From an uncultured Rubrobacteraceae bacterium (lineage in GTDB: Bacteria; Actinomycetota; Rubrobacteria; Rubrobacterales; Rubrobacteraceae), in contig CADCVH010000010.1 in assembly GCA_902806085.1 (NCBI GenBank), positions 1 to 64,000 on the forward strand: a DNA stretch of 64,000 nt. The letters are read 5' to 3'. The number at the start of each line of letters is the position of its first letter. Position 1 is the first letter of the stretch. The notes beneath the pieces are model-generated. The model saw only the letters and a program-made list of their open reading frames with translations. It ran no database searches and was not told the origin of the DNA. This document shows positions 4,572 through 64,000 of the stretch, in pieces. Both the position numbers and the translations under genes were made by a program.

Positions 4572-6187
4572 TTCGCGCGCTCCCTGATGACCAGAAGGTA
4601 GAGCGGGACCGCCGAGATCCCGATCAGGAGCAGCGCCGGCGCCGCCGCCCTGGCAAAGAACGCGTCGCCCGTGGCGCCCCAGATCCTGGTCGCCAGGGTC
4701 TCGAACCCGGTCGGGCCGAGCAGCAGGGTTGCGGGCAACTCCTTCATCGTCGTCAAGAATACCAGGGCCGCGCCCGCGACGACGCCGGAGCCGGCGAGCG
4801 GCGCCGTGATGGTGGCCGCGACCCGCACCGGACCTCGCCCGAGGCCGCGCGCCGCCTCCTCCACGCTCGGCCTTACCTGCAACAGCGCCGAGCGGCTGGC
4901 ACCCACGGCCTGCGGCAGGAAGTGGACGGTGTAGGCGAAGACGAGCAGGCCCAGCGTCTGGTAGGCCCACGGCGCGTAGTTGGCCCCGAAAAAGACCAGG
5001 GAGAGGGCGAGCACGATGCCGGGGAGCGCGTACCCGAGGTACGTCGTCTTCTCCACGAAACCGGAGATCCTGCCCCCGAACCTGACTGACAGGATCGCCA
5101 CCGGCAGGGCCGCGAGAGCCGTGACCGCCGCGGCGAGCCCCGAGGCGTAGACGGAGCTCCACGCCGCGTTCCACAGCGGACGCAGCGGCTCGCCCTCGGC
5201 GAGGCCCCGGACGAGCCAGAAGGCCAGAACGCCCACGGGGGCCGCAAGCGCGAGCAGGACGACCGCGGCGCAGAACAAGAGCGCGGGCCACCGCCAGCGC
5301 CCGAGCGGGACCCTCGGGGCCGGCCTGGAGGCGGCGTTGCCGTGGTAGCGGGCCCGGCCGCGGGTGCGGCCCTCGACGAGCAATACCGCGACCGTGAGCG
5401 CGACCAGCATCAGCGCCAGGATCGCGGCTGGCGTCCGGTCGAAAGCGGAGCGGTACTGGATGTAGATCTCGTTGGAAAAGCTCTCGTACTGCAAAATCGA
5501 CACGACCCCGAAATCGCTGAGGGCGTACAGCGCCACCAGCAGCGCCCCGGCCACGATGCCGGGCCTGAGCTGCGGCAGCGTCACGCGCAAAAAGGTCTCC
5601 CACGCCCCGCTGCCGAGGCTCCTCGCCGCCTCCTCCATCGCCGGGTCCATCCCCCGCAGCGCGCCCCTGACGGTCAGGAAGACGTAGGGGTAGGAGAAGA
5701 GCGTGAGGGCGAGGGCCGCGCCGGGGAAGCCGTAGATCTCGGGCAGCCGCTCCACGCCGAGCGGCTCCAACCAGCCCTGCAGCATCCCGCGGGGGCCGAG
5801 CACGCTAACGAGCACGAAGCCCCCGACGTAGGACGGTATAACGAGCGGCAGCGCCGCGAGCACGGCCCACGCCCGCCGGCCGGGGAGATCCGTGCGCGAC
5901 GTCAGCCAGGCAAGCGGGACGGAGACGGCCACGGAGGCGGCCGTGACCACACCGGCGAGCAGCGCGCTGCGGCCGAGAACGGCCAGGGTGTCCCCGTCGA
6001 GGACGACCTCCGCGACGGGCTCCCACCCTCCCTCCAGGGAGCGGACGACCAGGTAGATCAGGGGCAGGGCCATCGCCGCCACGACGAGCCCCGCGAGCGC
6101 CCCGAGCAGGATCGGTGGACGGCGCCGCGGCTTCGCCCCGCGCCGCCCCGCCCCGACCGCCGCCGGCGTCGTCACCCTAGAGGACAC
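4568..6187 (-). CDS. fbpB: Ferric-iron ABC transporter permease (fused duplicated permease)
   Basis: A 539-aa inner-membrane protein with about 12 helices and two copies of the binding-protein-dependent permease fold, the usual FbpB architecture. Each half carries an EAA-type loop for the ATPase: EEAARSLGSGAWETF (around 172) and EEAARGLGRGPVRVA (around 443). Start is GTG 6187, with AGGAG 4 nt upstream, overlapping the binding-protein gene by 11 nt; an internal GTG three codons later is an alternative. Its overlaps with genes on both sides show a single transcript fbpA-fbpB-fbpC. Confidence 0.85.
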   Translation of the reverse strand: MSSRVTTPAAVGAGRRGAKPRRRPPILLGALAGLVVAAMALPLIYLVVRSLEGGWEPVAEVVLDGDTLAVLGRSALLAGVVTAASVAVSVPLAWLTSRTDLPGRRAWAVLAALPLVIPSYVGGFVLVSVLGPRGMLQGWLEPLGVERLPEIYGFPGAALALTLFSYPYVFLTVRGALRGMDPAMEEAARSLGSGAWETFLRVTLPQLRPGIVAGALLVALYALSDFGVVSILQYESFSNEIYIQYRSAFDRTPAAILALMLVALTVAVLLVEGRTRGRARYHGNAASRPAPRVPLGRWRWPALLFCAAVVLLALAAPVGVLAFWLVRGLAEGEPLRPLWNAAWSSVYASGLAAAVTALAALPVAILSVRFGGRISGFVEKTTYLGYALPGIVLALSLVFFGANYAPWAYQTLGLLVFAYTVHFLPQAVGASRSALLQVRPSVEEAARGLGRGPVRVAATITAPLAGSGVVAGAALVFLTTMKELPATLLLGPTGFETLATRIWGATGDAFFARAAAPALLLIGISAVPLYLLVIRERAK

Positions 6188-7301
6188 CCGTCTCCTGCAA
6201 GAGCTCCAGCGTGCCGCCGAGGTCGTCGAGGTTGCTCAGGTCCACCTCGGGGCCCTGGGTCCCGGAGAGCGGCGGGAGCTCGTCGTTGATCTCGACCCCC
6301 TCCACGAGCGGGTACTCGTAGGTCTCGTCCGCGAAGTACTGCTGGGCCTCCTCGGAGAGCGCGAACTCCAGGAACTCCTGCCCGGCTTCCGGGTTCTCGG
6401 CCGTATCGAGGACGCCGGCCCCGGCGGCGAGCACGAGGGCGCCAGGGTCCCCGCCCTCAAGGTAGTAGTTGGCGGCGGGCAGGTCGTCCCCGCGCTCCTC
6501 TTTTACCTGGAAGAGGTAGTAATGGTTGACGAAGGCCACCTGAACCTCGCCGGAGGCCACGCCCTCGACGGCGCTCAGGTTGTCCGGGTAGACGAAGGGG
6601 TCGTTCGCCTGGATACCTTCGAGCCACTGCTGCGCCCGGTCCTCGCCTTCGAGGACCCGCAAAGCGGTCACGAAGGCCTGGAACGAGCCGTTGGTGGGGG
6701 CCCAGCCGATCCTGCCCTTCCACTTGGGATCGGTGAAGTCGAAGATGGAGTCGGGCAGGTCGCCCTCCTCAAGCTCCTCGGTGTTGTACGCGACGACCCT
6801 CGCCCGCCCGGAGGTGCCGACCCAGTCCCCGTCGTCGGCCTTGAACCTGGATGGGACCTTGCCCAGGATGTCGTCCGGCAGCTTCGTCAGGCGGCCCTCG
6901 TCGTCGAGCGCGCCAAGGGCGCCCGGGTCCTGGGCGAAGAAGAGGTCGGCCGGGCTATTCTCGCCCTCCTCGAGGATGGTCGCCGCGAGCTCGGCCGTGT
7001 CCCCGTAGCGGACCTGCACGTCCACGCCGCTGCGCTCCTCGAACTGCTCGAAGATGGGGCCGACGAGCTCCTCGCTGCGCCCGGAGTACACCACCAGCGA
7101 CCCCTCGCCCGGCTTGAGCGCCTCCTGCGCCGTCGTCTCGCCGGTCGTCTCGGAGCCGTTGCCCCCCCCGGAGTCGCCCCCCCCAGAGTCGCCCCCGCCG
7201 CCGTCGCCCCCCTGCGGGGGCGGCTCGCCGCAGCCCGCCGCGATCAGGATAGTGAGCGCCAGCATACCCAGCACGAGAGCAGAGCTTGCCCGTGAGATCA
7301 A
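6177..7301 (-). CDS. fbpA: Iron(III)-binding lipoprotein of an ABC importer
   Basis: A 374-aa exported solute-binding lipoprotein. Start TTG 7301 is supported by GAGAGGA 7 nt upstream and by the signal sequence that follows: charged N-terminus, hydrophobic LVLGMLALTILIAAGC, lipobox Cys at about residue 24, then a Gly/Ser linker. The mature domain begins with LVVYSGRSEELVGPIFEQFE and has the adjacent tyrosines of FVNHYYLF, the usual ferric-iron ligands of FbpA-type proteins. An upstream in-frame ATG at 7370 would run through the Fur-like box and is unlikely. First gene of the operon. Confidence 0.87.
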   Translation of the reverse strand: MISRASSALVLGMLALTILIAAGCGEPPPQGGDGGGGDSGGGDSGGGNGSETTGETTAQEALKPGEGSLVVYSGRSEELVGPIFEQFEERSGVDVQVRYGDTAELAATILEEGENSPADLFFAQDPGALGALDDEGRLTKLPDDILGKVPSRFKADDGDWVGTSGRARVVAYNTEELEEGDLPDSIFDFTDPKWKGRIGWAPTNGSFQAFVTALRVLEGEDRAQQWLEGIQANDPFVYPDNLSAVEGVASGEVQVAFVNHYYLFQVKEERGDDLPAANYYLEGGDPGALVLAAGAGVLDTAENPEAGQEFLEFALSEEAQQYFADETYEYPLVEGVEINDELPPLSGTQGPEVDLSNLDDLGGTLELLQETGVL

Positions 7302-7351
7302 AGTCCCGTCCTCTCCAACGCCGGGCCACAACGACCCGGCGGAGATAGTCC

Positions 7352-7372
7352 TAATGACAATCGTTTGCAATA
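7352..7372 (-). promoter_or_regulatory. Fur-like iron box upstream of fbpA
   Basis: The core TGACAATCGTTTGCA (7355-7369 region) is a 7-1-7 imperfect palindrome of Fur type. The same 21-nt sequence with one difference lies before efeO (12783-12803), in the same orientation. It begins 51 nt upstream of the fbpA TTG. Upstream of it on the minus strand is a conserved TTGACG block followed 13 nt later by TAGATT, a likely promoter. Binding by either Fur-family protein of the window (46.6 or 52.8 kb) is inferred. Confidence 0.65.
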
Positions 7373-7454
7373 ACCTCAGGTGGAGGGTAATCTACGGCGC
7401 TGTGGCGCGTCAAGTATTGGACGGGTTGTTTGTGAGCTGGGTCAAGGGGGGCGC

Positions 7455-8405
7455 GTGGGCCGGGTTCTGGTAACGGGCGCGGCGGGCTTTATCGGGTCGC
7501 ACCTGGTGGACCGGCTGCTGGCCGATGGCCGGGAGGTCGTCGGCGTCGATGCCTTTACCGGGTACTACTCCCGGCGCACCAAGGAACGCAACCTGGAGTC
7601 GGCTCTTAGGAGCGACGGGTTCCGGCTGGTGGAGGGGGATCTACTGGACCTCGACCTCGACGGCGTTCTCGACGGCGTCGGCCACGTCGCGCACCTGGCC
7701 GCGGAGCCCGGGGTGCGACGGAGCTGGGGCCGGAACTTCCCGCGGTATCTCTCCCGCAACGTGGCCGCAACCGAGCGCCTGCTGGAGGCGGCCGGCAAGG
7801 CCGGGGGGACGAAGGTCGTCTACGCCTCTTCCTCCTCCGTCTACGGGTCGGACCCGGGTCACCCGGTGGACGAGGGGCACGCGCGTTGCCCGGCTTCGCC
7901 GTACGCGCTCTCCAAGCTCGCCGCGGAGGAGCTGGTGGGTTTGTACGGGAGGGAGCGGGGGGTGCCGGGGACCGTGCTCAGGTACTTCACCGTCTACGGC
8001 CCGCGCCAGCGGCCCGAGATGGCGCTCTCGCGCTTCCTGTTCTCCGCGCTGCGCGGAAGGCCCGTGGACGTGTTCGGCGACGGGGGGCAGCGGCGGGACA
8101 TGACCTTCGTCGCCGACGCCGTCGAGGCGACCGTGGCGGCGCTGGAGGCGCCGGCCGGGGTGTACAACGTCGGGGGCGGGACGCGGGCGACGGTGGACGA
8201 GATGATCCAGGCCGTCCGGAAGGTGACAGGGGCCACCTTCGAGGTCCGCTATGGCCCCGAGGCCGAGGGCGACGTCCGGTCCACCTGGGCCGACTCCGGG
8301 CTCGCCGGGCGCGCCCTCGGCTACACGCCCCGCGTCGGCCTCGAAGAAGGCGTGGCCGCGCAGGCGGAGTGGGCCTCCCGCGCGCTCGTCGCCGCCCCGG
8401 CCTGA
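7455..8405 (+). CDS. NAD-dependent sugar-nucleotide epimerase/dehydratase
   Basis: A 316-aa extended short-chain dehydrogenase. Start GTG 7455 follows AAGGGGG and places the Rossmann motif TGAAGFIGSH at residues 7-16, as usual. Other landmarks: the SSSSVYGS segment with the catalytic serine/threonine region, YALSK (Tyr-x3-Lys active site) near residue 154, and FTVYGPRQRPEMALSRF typical of UDP-glucose 4-epimerase and UDP-glucuronate epimerase-like enzymes. Substrate is not determinable. It is followed 8 nt later by a GT39-like membrane glycosyltransferase, so both probably act in making or attaching an envelope sugar. Confidence 0.82.
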   Translation: MGRVLVTGAAGFIGSHLVDRLLADGREVVGVDAFTGYYSRRTKERNLESALRSDGFRLVEGDLLDLDLDGVLDGVGHVAHLAAEPGVRRSWGRNFPRYLSRNVAATERLLEAAGKAGGTKVVYASSSSVYGSDPGHPVDEGHARCPASPYALSKLAAEELVGLYGRERGVPGTVLRYFTVYGPRQRPEMALSRFLFSALRGRPVDVFGDGGQRRDMTFVADAVEATVAALEAPAGVYNVGGGTRATVDEMIQAVRKVTGATFEVRYGPEAEGDVRSTWADSGLAGRALGYTPRVGLEEGVAAQAEWASRALVAAPA

Positions 8406-8413
8406 GAAGCGCC

Positions 8414-10435
8414 GTGCTGCAAGGGCTCCTGATCCTGGCGGCCCTCTACCTGCCGGGCCACTTCCTCGGCCCCCGGCTCGCCCGCAAGGACGACGGCCTC
8501 GCCGAGCTCTCCCTGCTCCGCCTCTTCGCCTCCCTAGCCCTCGCCGCGCCCCTGCTGACCCTCCTCGCCCTGGCCGGATGGTTCACCGCCCCCGTCATAG
8601 TCGGCAGCCTCGCGGTCCTGGCCGTTGGGGCTTTCGTCTTCCGGCGCGGGGGCGGCTTGGGCGGCCGGGGCACCTACTGGGACCTCGGGGCGCTCGTGGT
8701 CGTTGCGGGAAGCTTCGGGCTCTACTGCCGGCCGGCGGAGTACGTCCTCAACAGCCGCGACCCGGGGGTGTACTTCCTTTTCGCGGACAAGCTGGCCAGA
8801 ACCGGGGCTTTGTTGCACCGGGACCCGCTCGTCGGGGCCGTGGCCTCGTTCCATCCTTTTCTAGAAGGGAAGAAGTACCCGGGGTTCTACGTGTACGGGC
8901 AGGACCTGATCGTGCCGCAATTCTTCCCCGGCCCGTTCGCTTTTCTGGGCCTTGGGGATCTGATCTGGGGCACCTGGGGCACCCTCCTGGTCGTGCCCGT
9001 CATGGGCGCCCTCTCCGTCGGCGCCGCCTACGCGCTCGGAAGCGAGCTCTTCGGCCGGTGGGCGGGGCTCTTGGGTGCTGCGCTTCTCGCGGCGGGGTAC
9101 GCCCAGGTCTGGTGGGCCCGACACCCGTCGAGCGAGGTGATGACCGCGCTTCTGGTCCTCGCCGGGCTGTGGTTCGCGGTGCGCTTCGTGCGCGGCGCCG
9201 GGCCGTTGACGGGCGTCTTCGCAGGCCTCCTGCTCGGGGGCGTCATGCTCATCCGGGTTGACGCCTTTCTAGCCGCGGCCGCGATCCCCGTTCTCTTCGG
9301 CCTCGACCTTCTCGCCCGCCGCCCCCTCGGGCGGTGGCTCTACCCGGGCGTGCCGCTCGTCACCTTCGCCGGCCTCACGCTCCTGTACCTCAACACCCTC
9401 GGGTCGCGCTACCTGTACGTGATCTACACCGAGCACGGCCTGAGGGAGGCCATAGCCCTGGCCCCGTACGCAGCGCCGTTCCTACTGGCCCTGGTCGCCG
9501 CCGTGCTGTACGTGAGGCGCCGGTGGGGCACGGCCATCGGATCGTACCTCGAGGCGTGGGGCGCGCGGATCTCCCTCGTCGGGGCAGTCGGCGCGGCCCT
9601 CGTGGCCCTCTGGGCCTACTTCGTGCTGCCGGTCCCTTGGGAGACGCTGCCGGACGGGTCCAGGGACTTCGACGCCTACCGGGCCCAGATCCTCGTCCGC
9701 CTGGTCTGGTTCGTGACGCCGCCCGTCGCCGCCCTCGGGCTCGTCGGTTTCGTCCTGGCGGCCCGCCGGATGGACGCCGGGCGGGCGCTGCTCTTCGGGG
9801 CGTTTCTCGCCTTCGGGGCGCTGTACGCGGCGATCCCGAACGTGGCGCCGGACCTGCCCTGGGCGACCCGGCGTTTCGTGCCCGCCGCGTTCCCGATCCT
9901 GGCCCTCCTCGCCGCCCACGCCACCGTCGAGATCGGGGGCACTATCTCCCGCCTCTCGAACGGGCGAACCGGCGCCGTCGCCTCCGGGGCCCTGGCGGCC
10001 CTGGCCCTATCCTGGACGGCCTACACCACGCTCCCCATCCTGGCCTTCCAGGAGCTCGACGGGGCCGTGGCCGCCTTCGACCGGATCGAGAAGAAGATAC
10101 CAACCGCCGAAACCGTCTACATGGAGATGCCCGAGGGCTACGACGTCACCGCCTCGACCTTCGAGTACCTCTACGGCCGTCCCGTCCTTCCCTACGACCG
10201 GGACCGCTTCGTGCGGGAGGTGGACGAGCTTCAGGAGGCCGGCCTGCTCGACGACGCCGTCTACGTCACCACCGACGGCGGCCCGGCGCCCCTGCTCGCG
10301 GACTGGAATTTCCGGGAGGTGGCGAAGGCCGGTTTGGACCTTCCGAGGCTCGCCGCCGTGGAGAAAGAGCTGCCCACGGTAAAGGAGGCGCTCCGCCTGG
10401 ACTACCGCGTCTTCCGCGTGGAGGAGGAACGGTGA
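8414..10435 (+). CDS. Polytopic GT39/ArnT-like glycosyltransferase
   Basis: A 673-aa protein with roughly 12 membrane helices and a C-terminal soluble part of about 130 residues. Start GTG 8414 is the first plausible codon after the epimerase stop. The first extracytoplasmic loop contains NSRDPGVYFLFADKL, where the acidic residue resembles the catalytic Asp of lipid-linked-sugar transferases (PMT, ArnT, arabinosyltransferase type). These enzymes use polyprenyl-phosphate sugars outside the membrane. No closer family is evident and the acceptor is unknown. It ends 37 nt from the convergent efeB gene. Confidence 0.65.
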   Translation: MLQGLLILAALYLPGHFLGPRLARKDDGLAELSLLRLFASLALAAPLLTLLALAGWFTAPVIVGSLAVLAVGAFVFRRGGGLGGRGTYWDLGALVVVAGSFGLYCRPAEYVLNSRDPGVYFLFADKLARTGALLHRDPLVGAVASFHPFLEGKKYPGFYVYGQDLIVPQFFPGPFAFLGLGDLIWGTWGTLLVVPVMGALSVGAAYALGSELFGRWAGLLGAALLAAGYAQVWWARHPSSEVMTALLVLAGLWFAVRFVRGAGPLTGVFAGLLLGGVMLIRVDAFLAAAAIPVLFGLDLLARRPLGRWLYPGVPLVTFAGLTLLYLNTLGSRYLYVIYTEHGLREAIALAPYAAPFLLALVAAVLYVRRRWGTAIGSYLEAWGARISLVGAVGAALVALWAYFVLPVPWETLPDGSRDFDAYRAQILVRLVWFVTPPVAALGLVGFVLAARRMDAGRALLFGAFLAFGALYAAIPNVAPDLPWATRRFVPAAFPILALLAAHATVEIGGTISRLSNGRTGAVASGALAALALSWTAYTTLPILAFQELDGAVAAFDRIEKKIPTAETVYMEMPEGYDVTASTFEYLYGRPVLPYDRDRFVREVDELQEAGLLDDAVYVTTDGGPAPLLADWNFREVAKAGLDLPRLAAVEKELPTVKEALRLDYRVFRVEEER

Positions 10436-10472
10436 GGTTCCAGGCACCGGCGATCGGGTTTGGTTCGCGTTA

Positions 10473-11753
10473 TCAGGCCCGGCCGAAAAGTCCCTCGCCG
10501 ACGTAGCCGCCCTCTGCCGCGCCGGGCGGGCAGGCGAAGAGGGCGCTCGCGGTGTGGCGGATGTACTCGTTGAGCCGGTCGTTGGCGGCGAGGCGCTGCT
10601 GGAGAGGGACGAACTGCTTGCGCGGGTCGCGCTGGAAGCAGATAAAGAAGAGGCCCGCGTCCAATTGGCCGCGCTCGGCGTCGAAGCCGTCGGTGAAGGA
10701 GTAGCCGCGGCGCAGTATCTTCTCCTCGTCGCTCTGCCGCGCGAGGCGGACGTGGGCGTCCTCGGCTATCAGGGGCTCCCCGTTTTCGTCCTTTGCCTCC
10801 AGGTCCATGGGGTCGAACTCGTCCCTCTTGCCGATGGGGGCGCCGCTGTACTTGTGACGGCCGATGCTGGCCTCCTGCTCGCCCAAAGAGACGCGGTCCC
10901 AGACCTCGATGAGCATCCGGATCCTGCGCGCCACGAGGTACGTTCCTCCCGCCATCCACGCCGGCCCCTCGCCCTCGGGCACCCAGACGTGCCGGTCCAT
11001 CAGGTCCTCGTCCTCGGCCTTTATGTTGCTGGTGCCGTCCTTGACGCCCATCAGGTTTCGCGGTGTGGCCTGCGTCTTGCTGGTGCTCGCGGTGCGCCCG
11101 AACCCGAGTTGGCTCCAGCGCACCACGGCGGCCCCGCGCGAGATCCTGACGAGGTTCCGCACGGCGTGGAACGCCACCTGCGGGTCGTCGGCGCACGCCT
11201 GCACGCACAAATCCCCGCCCGACCGGCCCTCGTCGAGCACGTCGCCCGTCAACGGTGGCAGGGGTGCTAACGCCCCCGGCATCGCCCCCGCGAGCCCGAA
11301 ACGGTCCTCGCCGTCCTTCTCGAAGAGCGTCGGCCCGAAGCCGAACGTGAGCGTGAGCCTGGCGGGGGAGAGGCCGAACGCCTCCCCGGTGTCCTCCGGG
11401 GGCATGAACTCGCTCTTGTTCTCCTCGCCCGCCGGTCGACCCGCCGTCATGCGCGCCGCGGCCTCCGTCCAGGCCCGCAAGACCTCCCGCACCTCCGAGG
11501 GGTCTTGCGTTACGAGATCCAGGGCGGCGAAATGCAGGTGCTCTTGCTGCGCCGTCGCTATGCCAGCCTGGTGGTCGCCGCGGAACGCGACCGTCTGCAA
11601 ACCGGGCAGCGCGGTTGGCCCGTCACCGGCGTCGCGGGCCTCCGCGGCCCCCCGGAGCGCGGCGTGGCCGCCCGCGCCGAGGGCCAGCCCCGCCCCGGCG
11701 GCACCCGTGACCCGGAAAAGGTCCCTGCGGCTGATCTTCTTGCTACCGCTCAA
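10473..11753 (-). CDS. efeB: TAT-exported Dyp-type haem peroxidase EfeB
   Basis: A 426-aa protein with a twin-arginine signal (SRRDLFRVTG, residues 8-17) and hydrophobic AGAGLALGAGG, so exported folded. The Dyp hallmark GVKDG (GxxDG, distal Asp) lies near residue 245, followed by YLVARRIRMLIEVWDR with the conserved arginine. In EfeUOB systems EfeB acts with EfeO in ferrous iron acquisition or haem use. It starts 13 nt after the efeO stop, so it is second gene of the operon. No EfeU permease is visible here, which is unusual for the pathway. Confidence 0.88.
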   Translation of the reverse strand: MSGSKKISRRDLFRVTGAAGAGLALGAGGHAALRGAAEARDAGDGPTALPGLQTVAFRGDHQAGIATAQQEHLHFAALDLVTQDPSEVREVLRAWTEAAARMTAGRPAGEENKSEFMPPEDTGEAFGLSPARLTLTFGFGPTLFEKDGEDRFGLAGAMPGALAPLPPLTGDVLDEGRSGGDLCVQACADDPQVAFHAVRNLVRISRGAAVVRWSQLGFGRTASTSKTQATPRNLMGVKDGTSNIKAEDEDLMDRHVWVPEGEGPAWMAGGTYLVARRIRMLIEVWDRVSLGEQEASIGRHKYSGAPIGKRDEFDPMDLEAKDENGEPLIAEDAHVRLARQSDEEKILRRGYSFTDGFDAERGQLDAGLFFICFQRDPRKQFVPLQQRLAANDRLNEYIRHTASALFACPPGAAEGGYVGEGLFGRA

Positions 11754-11766
11754 GACGCCGGCCTCC

Positions 11767-12765
11767 TCAACCTTCCAGCACCTGCCCGACCCGCGAGAGC
11801 GGTTCGGCCAGGGCGTCCACCTTCTGGCTCAGGGCGCGGCGGTCGGCCTCGTCTAGCTTCTCATAAGAGACCCAACCGTCGCCCCGCTGGTACTGCTCGA
11901 GCTCCTCGTAGACCCCGTCGAAGCCCTCCGTGACCTCGTTCGCCAGGGTGATGTCCTCCCCGGCGACCTCCGGCTTGAGCTCCTCGAAGGCGACCTCGGA
12001 GCCCTCGATGTTCGCTTTTATGTCGTATAGGTCGGTGTGCGAGTAGCGGTCCTCCTCGCCCGTGATCTTGCCCGCCGACACCTCGTTGAGCAACTCCACC
12101 GAGCCCGTGACGAGGTCCGCGGGCTCGAGCTCGACGGTCTCGACCTCCTCGCGCAGGTTGGTCACGTCCTGCATGAGCTGCCGCGCGTACTCCTCCTGCC
12201 CCTCGGTGGTGCCGCGCACCCAGAGGGCCTTCTCTATCCTGTGAAACCCGCGCCACTCATCAGCGGGCACGTCGCCCTCCCTGGCGTCGATGTTCGGGTC
12301 GTAGTCCCCGAGCGAGGCCGCTATCGGCTCGATCCGCTCCCACGGCTCCCGCGTCGGCCCAAAGAGCCTCTTCGCCTCCTCCACGTCGCCGGCCAGCACC
12401 GCATCCGTGAACGCCCCCGTCCGCCTCTCCAGAAGCGCCGTTTGCTCCACCACGTACTCCTCGTACTCGTCCGCCGCCGCGCCCAACTCCGGGCCACCCC
12501 CGACGTCCACGGCCGTCGTCCCCTCCGAAGTCGTCTCCCCGGAGGTCGTCTCCCCGGAGGTCGTCTCCCCGGAGGTCGTCTCCTCGGAGGCGGCCTCCCC
12601 GGCCGTCTCCTTCTTGGCCCCCTGGCCGTCCCCGCCGGAACCGCCGTTCTCGGGGGGGGCCTGCCCGCAACCCGCCACCGCCACTACGGCCAACGCCGCG
12701 AACGACGAGGCGCCCAACCACCGGCGCCAGGACATGATGAAGTTGCCAACGATCTTTGCCGGCAT
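11767..12765 (-). CDS. efeO: EfeO-type imelysin (M75) lipoprotein
   Basis: A 332-aa exported protein. ATG 12765 is preferred because AGGAGG lies 6 nt upstream; an ATG at 12801 would sit inside the iron box. The signal ends in a lipobox (VVAVAGC, Cys at about residue 34) followed by a low-complexity linker with four ET-rich repeats (ETTSG). The M75/EfeO signature HRIEKALW (HxxE) is present near residue 175, and the four-helix-bundle domain fills the rest. EfeO binds iron outside the membrane and works with EfeB. The cupredoxin domain of longer EfeO proteins is absent, as in short Gram-positive forms. Confidence 0.85.
   Translation of the reverse strand: MPAKIVGNFIMSWRRWLGASSFAALAVVAVAGCGQAPPENGGSGGDGQGAKKETAGEAASEETTSGETTSGETTSGETTSEGTTAVDVGGGPELGAAADEYEEYVVEQTALLERRTGAFTDAVLAGDVEEAKRLFGPTREPWERIEPIAASLGDYDPNIDAREGDVPADEWRGFHRIEKALWVRGTTEGQEEYARQLMQDVTNLREEVETVELEPADLVTGSVELLNEVSAGKITGEEDRYSHTDLYDIKANIEGSEVAFEELKPEVAGEDITLANEVTEGFDGVYEELEQYQRGDGWVSYEKLDEADRRALSQKVDALAEPLSRVGQVLEG
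12526..12600 (-). repeat. 15-bp tandem repeat in the EfeO linker
   Basis: Five consecutive 15-nt units related to GGAGGTCGTCTCCCC; three central copies differ by at most one base and the outer two are diverged. On the minus strand they encode the repeated ETTSG linker between the lipid anchor and the folded domain. The period is a multiple of three, so copy-number change would alter linker length without breaking the frame. Confidence 0.8.
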
Positions 12766-12782
12766 GACCCGCCTCCTGATAT

Positions 12783-12803
12783 TAATGACAATCATTTGCA
12801 ATA
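12783..12803 (-). promoter_or_regulatory. Fur-like iron box upstream of efeO
   Basis: Core TGACAATCATTTGCA, identical to the fbpA box except for one central base, beginning 18 nt upstream of the efeO ATG and directly next to its ribosome site. The flanking minus-strand TTGACC, 13 nt, TACATTACC arrangement is also shared with the fbpA promoter. This strongly suggests one regulator for both iron operons. Confidence 0.68.
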
Positions 12804-12924
12804 GTTTCGGGACAAAGGTAATGTACGGCGAGGTTGTTGGTCAAGAGTCGGGCGGGGATATTGTGAGGCAGATCAAATACGGGGAGGGCCCGGCACGATC
12901 GCCGCGGCGGGGTGGCGGCCTTCG

Positions 12925-14376
12925 GTGGACTGCGTGAAGGCGGCGTCGGGGTTCGAGATCCTGGCCGCCCGCTTGTGGAACGTGCTCAACGAGGGCAAGT
13001 CGTTCCATCCGGTCTTCGTCCTCGGGGTCTTCTTGCTGCTCCACGTGGGGGAGGTTTTCGGGGCGGGCTTCTGGGGCCGGGCGTTGCCGGCGCTCTTGAT
13101 CTTGGTCCCGCTCGTGGTCGTCTTTGTGCGTTACGATTTTCCCCTCAAGCTGCGTTGGGCGCTGTGGGTGTTTCTGGCGGCGTTCGTGCTCGTCTTCCGG
13201 TTCGTGGACGTGGGGGCGCTGGCGCTCGCGCTCGGGCTCTACGTGTTCTTTACAGTCTTTTTCTGGGGCACCTTCTACTACCACCTGCGCACGGGGGCGC
13301 CGAGGACCAACTTCGTCCGGTTCTGGAGGCTCGTGCTGGAGAACCCCGACTCGACGAGCGGGAACTTTCTGGAGCAGGTGCCGAAGGCGCTGCTCGTTCT
13401 GTTCGCGCTGGAGTACCTGGTCTCGGCGCCGCTCTCGGCTGGACGGGCCGGGGCGATTTTGGCTTTCACGGTTGCGGTTGGGGTCGGCGGGTGGTGGGTG
13501 CACCGGCGGTTCTTCGACTGGAAGCCGGTGTATCCGGCCGAGCCTACGAAGGTGGTCAACCGCGGCGGGGCGTTGGCGAAGCGCGTGATCGTGGTGGTCA
13601 TAGACGGGTGCCGGCTGGACAGGTTCAACGAGGCCGAGAAGCCGTACCTGGAGAGGATGATGGCGGACGGGACGGTCTACGAGTCGGTGGAGACCGTCTA
13701 CCCCGCGAGGACGGTGGTGTGCTTCTCGTCCATGCTCACGGGGGCGGCGCCTGAGAAGCACGGGATAACTTCGAACCTGGTCCTGAAGCTCGGCCTGAAG
13801 GTCGAGAGCGTCTTCGACGTGCTGCGCCGGTCGGGCAAGAAGGGGCGTCTCGTAGGTATCGCGCACCTAATAGACGCCTTTGGGGATGACGTGGCGAGCG
13901 TGACAAGCGTGGCCCACAACGACAAGATCGACGGCAACCTCATCGCCGCCGGGCGGCGCGAGCTCGAGGAGCACGATCCCGAGCTCCTGGTCCTGCAGCT
14001 ATTGGCCGTGGACCAGAACGGGCACGTGCGCGGCACCCGGTACCCGGAGTACGTGGAGCGCATCGAGATCACGGACAACCTCATAGAGGGCTTCATGTCC
14101 TGGTGCGAGGAGAAGGGTTTCCTCGAAGATACCGCCGTCGTGCTGATGGCCGACCACGGCCAGGGCATCGGCATCGGCGCCCACGGCCACCTCTCCGAGG
14201 GGGAACGCTTCGTCCCGTTTGCCATGTGGGGCAGCGGCGTAAAGCCCGGGCAGACGGTAACGGCGCCCGCCTCCGTCATGGACCTCGGGCCGACCATCTG
14301 CTACCTCCTCGGCGTCGAGCCGCCGGCGGGCTCCACGGGCCGGGTACTGGAGGACGCGCTGGAGGGTGCCGGGTGA
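12925..14376 (+). CDS. Membrane-anchored type I phosphodiesterase / nucleotide pyrophosphatase
   Basis: A 483-aa protein. Residues about 25-200 hold four to five helices; from about 215 comes an alkaline-phosphatase-superfamily domain. Visible motifs are VVVIDGCRLDRF (metal Asp), PARTVVCFSSMLTG with the probable nucleophile Thr, LAVDQNGHVRG and MADHGQGIGIGAHG with metal Asp/His. Such domains cleave phosphodiesters or phosphonates, for example in nucleotide or lipid-linked substrates. The GTG start at 12925 lacks a clear ribosome site; GTG 12934 is an alternative. The stop overlaps the next glycosyltransferase start (GTGA), implying a shared task in envelope polymer or lipid processing. Confidence 0.75.
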   Translation: MDCVKAASGFEILAARLWNVLNEGKSFHPVFVLGVFLLLHVGEVFGAGFWGRALPALLILVPLVVVFVRYDFPLKLRWALWVFLAAFVLVFRFVDVGALALALGLYVFFTVFFWGTFYYHLRTGAPRTNFVRFWRLVLENPDSTSGNFLEQVPKALLVLFALEYLVSAPLSAGRAGAILAFTVAVGVGGWWVHRRFFDWKPVYPAEPTKVVNRGGALAKRVIVVVIDGCRLDRFNEAEKPYLERMMADGTVYESVETVYPARTVVCFSSMLTGAAPEKHGITSNLVLKLGLKVESVFDVLRRSGKKGRLVGIAHLIDAFGDDVASVTSVAHNDKIDGNLIAAGRRELEEHDPELLVLQLLAVDQNGHVRGTRYPEYVERIEITDNLIEGFMSWCEEKGFLEDTAVVLMADHGQGIGIGAHGHLSEGERFVPFAMWGSGVKPGQTVTAPASVMDLGPTICYLLGVEPPAGSTGRVLEDALEGAG

Positions 14377-46623: not shown

Positions 46624-47055
46624 CTAGCCGGCGGCGCGGCAGGCGGGGCAGAGGCCCTCGACGACCACGGCGGCGCGCGTCACCTCGTAGGGGGTCGCGC
46701 CCCGCAGGCGGTCCTCCAAGTCCCCGAGGTCCACGCCCGGTATTTCGGAAACCTCGCCGCAACCCAGGCAGCGGATGTCCAGGTGCGGGTCCACGTTCAG
46801 GTCGTAACGCGTGGGCGACTCCGACCAGTGCTTGGCGCCTATCACCCCGATCTCCTCGAGAACGGAGAGCGCCTGGTAGACCGTGCCAAGCGCCACGCGC
46901 GGGTTCTTCTTCTTGACCAGGAGGTAGACGTCCTCCGCGGAGGGATGCCCCCGGCTCTCGCCCAGCGCCTCCAGAACCGCCTTGCGCTGCGAGGTCAGGG
47001 TGTAGCCGGACCTGCGAAACCGCTCGCGTATGTCCCTCTCCTGCGTGCCGCCCAT
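46624..47055 (-). CDS. Fur-family transcription regulator (Fur/PerR-type) 1
   Basis: A 143-aa metal-sensing repressor. Winged-helix part: SGYTLTSQRKAVLEALGES, GHPSAEDVYLLVKKKNPRVA, GTVYQALSVLEEIGVIGAKH; dimer part: VDPHLDIRCLGCGEVSEIPG and CPACRAAG, giving two CxxC pairs for structural zinc. ATG 47055 with AGGAAG upstream. The HLDIRC segment resembles PerR/Fur regulatory-metal ligands, but Fur, PerR and Zur cannot be separated safely. It is divergent from sppA. It could act on the two iron boxes in this window. Confidence 0.82.
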   Translation of the reverse strand: MGGTQERDIRERFRRSGYTLTSQRKAVLEALGESRGHPSAEDVYLLVKKKNPRVALGTVYQALSVLEEIGVIGAKHWSESPTRYDLNVDPHLDIRCLGCGEVSEIPGVDLGDLEDRLRGATPYEVTRAAVVVEGLCPACRAAG

Positions 47056-52787: not shown

Positions 52788-52793
52788 GTGAGC

Positions 52794-53204
52794 ATGCTGG
52801 ATCTCGAACGCATACTCAGGGACAGGGGCTACCGGCTCACGAACCAGCGGCGGGTGATCGTGCGCGAGCTCGAAGGGGAGCGGCACCTCTCGGCCGAAGA
52901 ACTCTACGATCGGGTGAAGGGGGAGCATCCCGAGCTCGGTCTCTCCACGGTCTACCGGACGCTGGACCTGTTGACGGAGCTCGGGGTCGTGCGCAAGGAG
53001 GATTTTGGGGAGGGGTACTCGCGGTACGAGCTCTCCACGGAGCGCGTGCATCATCACGCCCGTTGCGACGAGTGCGGGGCCGTCATAGAGTTCAACGAAG
53101 AGCTCATGGAGTACCTGGCGTTGCAGGTCGAGCGCGAGACCGGCTTCGTCACCGACTGGCACGAGATCACACTCCACGGCCGCTGCGCCGCCTGCTCAGA
53201 ATAA
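52794..53204 (+). CDS. Fur-family transcription regulator 2
   Basis: A 136-aa metalloregulator. RDRGYRLTNQRRVIVRELEG, HLSAEELYDRVKGEHPELGL and STVYRTLDLLTELGVVRK form the winged helix; ERVHHHARCDECGAVIEF has the HHH-x-RC metal site typical of Fur; CAAC near the end completes the second CxxC. ATG 52794 is preferred for the promoter reason above; GTG 52788 would add two residues. Likely senses Fe2+ (or Zn2+) and may bind the inverted repeat before its own gene. Confidence 0.86.
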   Translation: MLDLERILRDRGYRLTNQRRVIVRELEGERHLSAEELYDRVKGEHPELGLSTVYRTLDLLTELGVVRKEDFGEGYSRYELSTERVHHHARCDECGAVIEFNEELMEYLALQVERETGFVTDWHEITLHGRCAACSE

Positions 53205-63519: not shown

Positions 63520-63650
63520 ACGTCGTGTGGTTCCTACAACCCGCCCCGGGTCCGCCGGTCCACGCAAGTAAGGTACACTGTAGCAATGTGTAGCAGGTAC
63601 GACACCGGGGGAACGGGGACGCAGTGACGGACGTTAGCGGGGGGCTTTAG

Positions 63651-64000
63651 ATGGACGTGGATCCTTCCCTGTCGGAGTACACCGAGCTCCAGGAGCAGGA
63701 GAGCCGCTCGCTCCTGCGGCTGATAGAGGAGATGGGTATCGCCACCGCCGACCGGACCTACAGGCCTGGGGACGCCGTCTACCGCCAGGGCGAGTACGGC
63801 GACGCGCTCTACGTGCTGGTCTCCGGCGTCCTGAAGCTCTTCCGCCCCTACTCGGGCAGCAAGGAGGCGACGCTTCGGCTGCTCACCTCGTGGGACATCT
63901 TCGGGCACCTGGCCTTCGCCGGCGAGGCGCGCCAGCGCGCCTACGCCGAGGCCGTCACCGAATGCCGGGTCACCAAGATCCCCAAGGTCTTCGTCGAGCG
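63651..64000 (+). CDS. Crp/Fnr-family transcription regulator, N-terminal part
   Basis: The first 116 codons of a gene cut by the right edge. ATG 63651; the cyclic-nucleotide-binding fold is visible: YRPGDAVYRQGEYGDALYVL, VSGVLKLFRPYSGSKEATLR, LTSWDIFGHLAFAGEARQRA, YAEAVTECRVTKIPK. No N-terminal Cys cluster, so not an FNR-type oxygen sensor. The DNA-binding domain would lie outside the window. May respond to cAMP or another small ligand. Confidence 0.82.
   Translation, partial: MDVDPSLSEYTELQEQESRSLLRLIEEMGIATADRTYRPGDAVYRQGEYGDALYVLVSGVLKLFRPYSGSKEATLRLLTSWDIFGHLAFAGEARQRAYAEAVTECRVTKIPKVFVE

Follow-up and report, generated by a model that had tools for sequence, protein, structure and literature searches.

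Within the window, the stretch of 64,000 nucleotides of uncultured Rubrobacteraceae DNA analysed here, the two segments at 7352-7448 and 12783-12879 are very probably two instances of one compound promoter, in which a CRP-type operator is combined with a Fur-like box. Strong selection on a complex promoter, one of two explanations that an earlier note on this DNA had offered for the likeness of these segments, is well supported by the comparison of relatives, since the same elements at the same spacing are found before fbpA, efeO and other iron genes family-wide. The genes flanking the two segments are as follows.

6177..7301, minus strand: fbpA-like ferric-iron binding lipoprotein gene, with a TTG start at 7301 assigned from the ribosome site and the lipobox
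7455..8405, plus strand: NAD-dependent epimerase gene, divergent, starting 9 nt past the CRP-type operator
10473..11753, minus strand: efeB (DyP-type peroxidase), which comes after efeO
11767..12765, minus strand: efeO, with an ATG at 12765 assigned from the AGGAGG before it
12925..14376, plus strand: type I phosphodiesterase gene, divergent

The ferric-iron binding protein encoded to the left of the first segment has 7w3w as its best solved relative (E = 1.7e-82). To the right of the first segment the epimerase gene is followed by the gene of a PMT-like membrane glycosyltransferase, and to the right of the second segment the phosphodiesterase gene is followed by that of a GT2 glycosyltransferase. 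Both segments precede iron-acquisition genes (ferric-binding protein; EfeO and EfeB), as is likewise the case in relatives, and the genes downstream of the two are unrelated to each other, as had been stated previously. EfeU/FTR1-like genes come after the cassette in several relatives, and in this genome efeO follows it directly.

A formal ungapped alignment of the two segments gives 66 identical positions of 97 (68%), in agreement with the gapless likeness of roughly 70 percent over about 97 nt that the earlier note had reported, and the shared blocks named there (GGTAAT-TACGGCG, GTCAAG, TGTGAG and others) are all found in both segments. With the initial 22 nt, where the Fur-like box lies, set aside, the identity is 46/75. 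The local score of the pair was equalled by none of 2000 dinucleotide shuffles with the box and by one of 2000 without it, and chance similarity is ruled out by this shuffling test, which had been proposed as a possible refutation. Beyond the limits of the segments the identity drops to 1-5 per 10 nt, with the exception of a 7/10 block at 7312. The suggested scan of the genome for further copies (4.41 Mb, 133 contigs) gave a divided answer: BLASTN with the fbpA-side segment returned two copies only, and a profile search added a third, shortened copy (G000:C1:14937-15018, 21.4 bits; G000 is the genome itself), which sits between a fecB-like gene and a divergent fecCD-like gene, both named from the appearance of their sequences.

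What the segments share past the box is mostly the CRP-type operator and core promoter elements, which the earlier reading had missed. Toward the iron genes the order is CRP-type operator, TTGAC, 18 nt, TANNNT and the Fur-like box, the last just beyond the predicted start, and the elements in the window are the following.

7352..7372, minus strand: Fur-like box of the fbpA cassette, a 21-mer with a 15-nt core at 7355-7369, at about +5 to +25 of the predicted leftward start
7384..7389, minus strand: leftward -10 TACCCT of the fbpA cassette, predicted start near 7377
7408..7413, minus strand: leftward -35 TTGACG of the fbpA cassette, spacer 18 nt
7431..7446, minus strand: CRP-type operator CTTGACCCAGCTCACA of the fbpA cassette, centre near -61.5
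12783..12803, minus strand: Fur-like box of the efeO cassette, 15-nt core at 12786-12800
12815..12820, minus strand: leftward -10 TACCTT of the efeO cassette, predicted start near 12808
12839..12844, minus strand: leftward -35 TTGACC of the efeO cassette, spacer 18 nt
12862..12877, minus strand: CRP-type operator TTTGATCTGCCTCACA of the efeO cassette, centre near -61.5

In an alignment of 26 promoters (from 28 upstream regions, of which one without a box and one with a weak box were dropped), the invariant columns coincide with TGA.C....TCAC, TTGA, TA...T and the box. Of the 50 cassettes parsed, 37 have the CRP-type site 16-17 nt before the -35, a count that leans toward this geometry because promoters that have it served to train both the parse and the model; the 50 come from 52 model matches, G001 fbpA and G004:C449 being left out. 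With the start assumed to be 7 nt downstream of the -10, this spacing places the centre of the site at -60.5/-61.5. In the G012 fbpA cassette the site is 10 nt farther from the -35 (centre near -70.5), and in five fecB promoters it is 11 nt nearer (centre -49.5), so that an operator near -61.5 or one turn away, as class I activation demands, is present in these 37, one and five cassettes. No good CRP-type site was found in six of the 50, and in a seventh the site is weak and lies at 31 nt. Shifts by a helical turn fit class I activation as it is known for E. coli CRP, and the shifts seen here are such as helical phasing would allow; the -49.5 of the fecB class would be an unusual class I distance. 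The fecB cassette of this genome keeps all elements, and its 11-nt shortening is also found in four relatives. A strict sigma-70 promoter scan detected no promoter in the region of either segment, and the promoter assignment was kept because of the conservation, not because of that scan. An alternative reading of the core promoter, TACATT/TAGATT after a spacer of 13 nt, was rejected, as the invariant TA...T is found four letters beyond it.

The whole segment is conserved upstream of efeO and fbpA in relatives. A sequence-only model made from the aligned promoters has matches in 30 of 36 family genomes, a coverage that rests on partly incomplete genomes, and in none of 24 from the phylum's other families. 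When 78 sources were searched with the model, comprising the window, the fecB locus and 76 fbpA loci drawn from many phyla, 15 places matched, namely the window, the genome's own fecB locus and records of Rubrobacter or Rubrobacteraceae, with the exception of L135 (Actinomycetota) and L140 (Actinobacteria). The genes that come after the cassette at 25 loci encode proteins that take up or spare iron, namely EfeU/FTR1-like permeases, a second FTR1 type, fecB-like binding proteins and flavodoxins, a few being unclear; at one of the 25 an EfeO-like gene stands beside a DtxR-like regulator, and in G016 a single cassette heads the row efeO, efeB, fbpA, fbpB. Among the listed Rubrobacter literature on Fur/iron or Crp regulons, no title or beginning of an abstract concerned such a promoter.

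The box is a Fur-like 7-1-7 palindrome that is present in both segments and conserved in relatives, and what we take to be the Fur consensus, TGATAATNATTATCA, agrees with its core at 11 of 14 letters. With up to three mismatches allowed, a 20-nt form of the box occurs twice in the window, with 0.00 expected, and the 15-nt core has two exact occurrences and one with two mismatches. At up to three mismatches the core gives 31 matches versus 24 in the reversed control, which indicates that its weaker matches are mostly noise. One gene of the window encodes a candidate repressor.

52788..53204, plus strand: Fur-family gene, candidate repressor of the box, nearest to iron-type Fur models at 126 bits, below the cut-off of 220

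The window also contains a second Fur-family gene, at 46624-47055, which scores 98 bits with PerR models and 87 bits with Fur models, all below the cut-off.

The genome itself has six strong PF13545 matches, and two of these, at contig ends (G000:C132 and G000:C44), look like parts or copies of one split group A gene. In a set of 65 regulators, comprising 60 of the matches listed and five from the genome itself, three CRP groups, A, B and C, are present in 14, 15 and 16 genomes, respectively; a group B gene (helix STRESVTK), universal and of the CRP family, straddles the right edge of the window (63650-64000 and beyond). Group C is a universal CRP/FNR-family regulator with the helix SREALSR, which we take to join the CRP-like Arg-Glu-x-x-x-Arg pattern with an FNR-like Ser, and two cysteines are invariant among its 16 sequences. 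Its closest solved relatives are GlxR of Corynebacterium and M. tuberculosis CRP (3r6s, 4byy, 4cyd and 3d0s). In the alignment with GlxR, positions that we take to contact cAMP differ in group C, with Glu replaced by Leu, Arg by Gln and Thr-Asn by Leu-Glu. That an asparagine of GlxR contacts cAMP is described in PMC4254451. Control of group C by cAMP was rejected, as the contact residues are absent; for the same reason group C was filed as CRP/FNR-family and not as cAMP-CRP, and it probably answers another signal.

An operator matrix from 25 distinct cassette sites was scored over the loci of CRP-family genes. All 16 group C loci carry a cassette-type operator beside the gene, at 18-28 bits, whereas no operator above 14.0 bits was found at the 42 loci of groups A (16), B (15 of 16, G011_L309 having been omitted) and D (11). 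Groups A, B and D were rejected as the activator in view of the lack of a comparable operator near their genes, and the comparison makes group C the most likely activator at the CRP-type site, an assignment that is probably correct. It is unlikely that the site is bound instead by group A or B, perhaps in response to cAMP, with the site beside group C coincidental to that regulon: these two groups are near-universal too, and their Arg-Glu-x-x-x-Lys helices presumably resemble that of M. tuberculosis CRP, but none of their 31 scanned loci has an operator of the kind that stands beside every group C gene. At the group C locus the site comes after the regulator gene, facing a ferredoxin gene that is seen in frame in 13 of the 16 stretches; no ferredoxin frame was found in the remaining three. 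In this genome the promoter between the group C regulator and the ferredoxin gene (L112:1860-1980; G000:C102:11861 onward) shows a CRP-type site, two further inverted repeats at steps of about 22 nt and a TATAAA-like -10, a layout that is conserved in most of the 16 relatives.

The consensus of the site, TTTGATCTAGCTCACA, agrees at 14 of 16 letters with what we take to be the E. coli CRP consensus. It also fits the TGTGANNTANNTCACA given for GlxR in PMC4254451, at all but one specified letter. Across 39 family genomes a strict pattern, TTTGAYCYNNNTCACA, is matched 72 times, versus two matches for the reversed control; by their coordinates, about 23 of the 72 are in iron cassettes and about 22 directly follow a gene of the CRP family. 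Among 30 matches that were read, the targets besides cassettes and ferredoxin genes include an M55-peptidase-like operon, an SDR gene and genes for membrane exporters and for EF-hand-like proteins. These targets were identified from open reading frames with no family search, so that names such as M55 peptidase reflect sequence appearance. Since the operator also precedes genes without an iron role, the activator would not be specific to iron. At L392 (G000:C94:67341-67356), and likewise in several relatives, the CRP-type site lies directly before the start of the M55-peptidase-like gene, a position that would be apt for repression. In a genome without model matches, an EfeO-like gene (L376; G011:C4:131873) has a tandem pair of CRP-type sites upstream.

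The segments may also be read in the opposite direction, and a rightward promoter for the glycan genes, with its -35 inside the Fur-like box, appears somewhat probable. Its elements would be the following.

7365..7370, plus strand: probable rightward -35 TTGCAA of the fbpA cassette, within the Fur-like box
7388..7393, plus strand: probable rightward -10 TAATCT of the fbpA cassette, with its TA common to the leftward -10, predicted start near 7400
12796..12801, plus strand: probable rightward -35 TTGCAA of the efeO cassette, within the Fur-like box
12819..12824, plus strand: probable rightward -10 TAATGT of the efeO cassette, predicted start near 12831

In this direction TTGCAA is followed after 17 nt by TAATCT or TAATGT, the TA of which overlaps the leftward -10; the hexamers are weak. 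Among 37 cassettes of the main geometry, the rightward TANNNT is present in all 18 with a close divergent gene and in four of the 19 without one (p = 5e-7), or in 7/7 versus 3/12 with one vote per genus and gene class (p = 0.003), in a test that was not blind, as the idea of a rightward promoter arose after the conserved letters had been seen. The 37 leave aside seven fecB cassettes, the G012 fbpA and efeU cassettes, an unassigned G012 locus, the G018 efeO-like cassette and the remnant loci of G015 and G031. A 204-aa divergent frame at three FTR1-type cassettes (G009, G021 and G029) was considered spurious and left out of the gene tally; if it is taken as a gene, the figures become 18/21 versus 4/16 (p = 0.0005).

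The promoter might instead be one-way, the apparent rightward -10 belonging to the leftward promoter of the fbpA and efe classes and the glycan genes being served by another promoter. The four cassettes that have TANNNT without a close divergent gene would fit this, as would the confinement of the rightward -10 otherwise to the fbpA and efe classes, by which gene class and divergent gene are partly confounded. We nevertheless consider a one-way promoter rather doubtful, in that nine of the 12 genus-by-class groups without a divergent gene lack the rightward -10 and all seven with one possess it. Moreover, the coding similarity of the epimerase begins 9-18 nt from the CRP-type site at eight loci, and at a ninth (G062) 11 nt from the cassette, so that a separate glycan promoter would have little space. 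Two loci that lack the iron operon retain the rightward -10 together with the Fur-like box. G015 has no fbpA operon, and the closest gene that reads away from the box is an unrelated one more than 1 kb distant; the box beside the epimerase gene is intact and the rightward -10 is kept, the CRP-type site is much altered and TTGACG has become TCGACG. In G031 the glycosyltransferase and phosphodiesterase genes have no efeO and efeB between them; the box (with one change) and TAATGT are retained, and the CRP-type site and the -35 are altered. These remnants, both from one genus, are suggestive but not proof of a rightward promoter. The control of the divergent glycan genes, which the earlier note had raised as a possibility, gains support both from these loci and from the way in which the rightward -10 tracks a close divergent gene.

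The other explanation that had been put forward, duplication of the regulatory cassette, did not hold up in the same way, as the copies share little outside the functional elements. The spacers of the two copies agree at 24 of 42 positions versus 12.2 expected (p = 0.0002), an excess that other gene classes do not show, but it is almost wholly due to the 9 nt of the rightward -10, and without those the agreement gives p = 0.03, 0.01, 0.32 and 0.37 in four genomes. A recent duplication, initially indicated by the all-spacer value, was rejected once the spacer had been split in this way. In a tree of 38 cassettes, weak in view of implausible placements such as a flavodoxin cassette among those of fbpA, the efe and fbp copies of this genus stand apart, grouped by gene and not by genome, and the identical architecture before unrelated genes across the family is without spacer likeness. 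On the other side, in G000, G003 and G006 the efeO-efeB block with its cassette seemingly lies between two glycan genes that are only about 30 nt apart in G007, a gene order that fits an old event. A fairly recent duplication of one segment, with the letters shared outside the motifs as unselected remnants, is thus quite unlikely, and an old duplication of the cassette is possible.

Built on the observed elements, their spacing and conservation, the gene order and the operator beside the group C gene, the two-way promoter explanation as a whole seems reasonably likely, with binding, activation, repression, start points and the signal of the regulator as its predictions. In the iron direction, RNA polymerase would use TTGAC-N18-TANNNT, and a CRP/FNR-family activator at TTTGAYCYNNCTCACA near -61.5 would help the polymerase in a class I manner; this activator would most likely be group C, probably responding to a signal other than cAMP. 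Fur with iron would bind the box just past the start and block transcription, and the iron-uptake genes would be switched on under iron shortage. In the glycan direction, the polymerase would use TTGCAA within the Fur-like box, a 17-nt spacer and TAATNT, and since this -35 is within the box, Fur would silence the glycan direction too.

A CRP-family activator and Fur likewise both act on iron genes in E. coli, where Crp and Fur control iron promoters (Zhang et al. 2005, J. Bacteriol. 187:980, as cited in PMC8846999). Unlike in that case, the host here is an actinobacterium, the activator is uncharacterised and without the cAMP contacts, and the sites stand at fixed spacing in one cassette that is repeated before many operons. 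The E. coli fepB-entC region, as presented in PMC5020551, is likewise one intergenic region with two directions under Fur; its two Fur boxes do not overlap and iron genes flank it on either side, whereas here there is one box and glycan genes are on the second side. Overlapping divergent promoters are also found among the bidirectional pseudo-symmetrical promoters of E. coli (PMC12825309); here the -10 elements share TA and, unlike in those promoters, the Fur-like box overlaps one -35 and the arrangement is deduced from sequence.

A tentative and rather speculative extension would be a Rubrobacteraceae module in which a site for a non-cAMP CRP-family regulator and a Fur-like operator common to overlapping promoters couple iron uptake with surface-glycan remodelling, the activator reporting Fe-S or redox status; the Fe-S/redox reading is taken from the ferredoxin gene, with the same operator, that adjoins the group C gene. 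Better-known actinobacteria control iron uptake by DtxR/IdeR. If the mechanism is true, iron uptake in a deep actinobacterial lineage would be run by Fur together with a CRP-family activator placed at a constant class I distance. A universal regulator of the CRP family, so far uncharacterised, would gain a defined operator and a target list, by which its signal becomes directly testable, and the loci that lack an iron operon yet have the box would serve as natural experiments in promoter evolution. The cell-surface glycan genes of these bacteria would then be tied to iron via one common operator.
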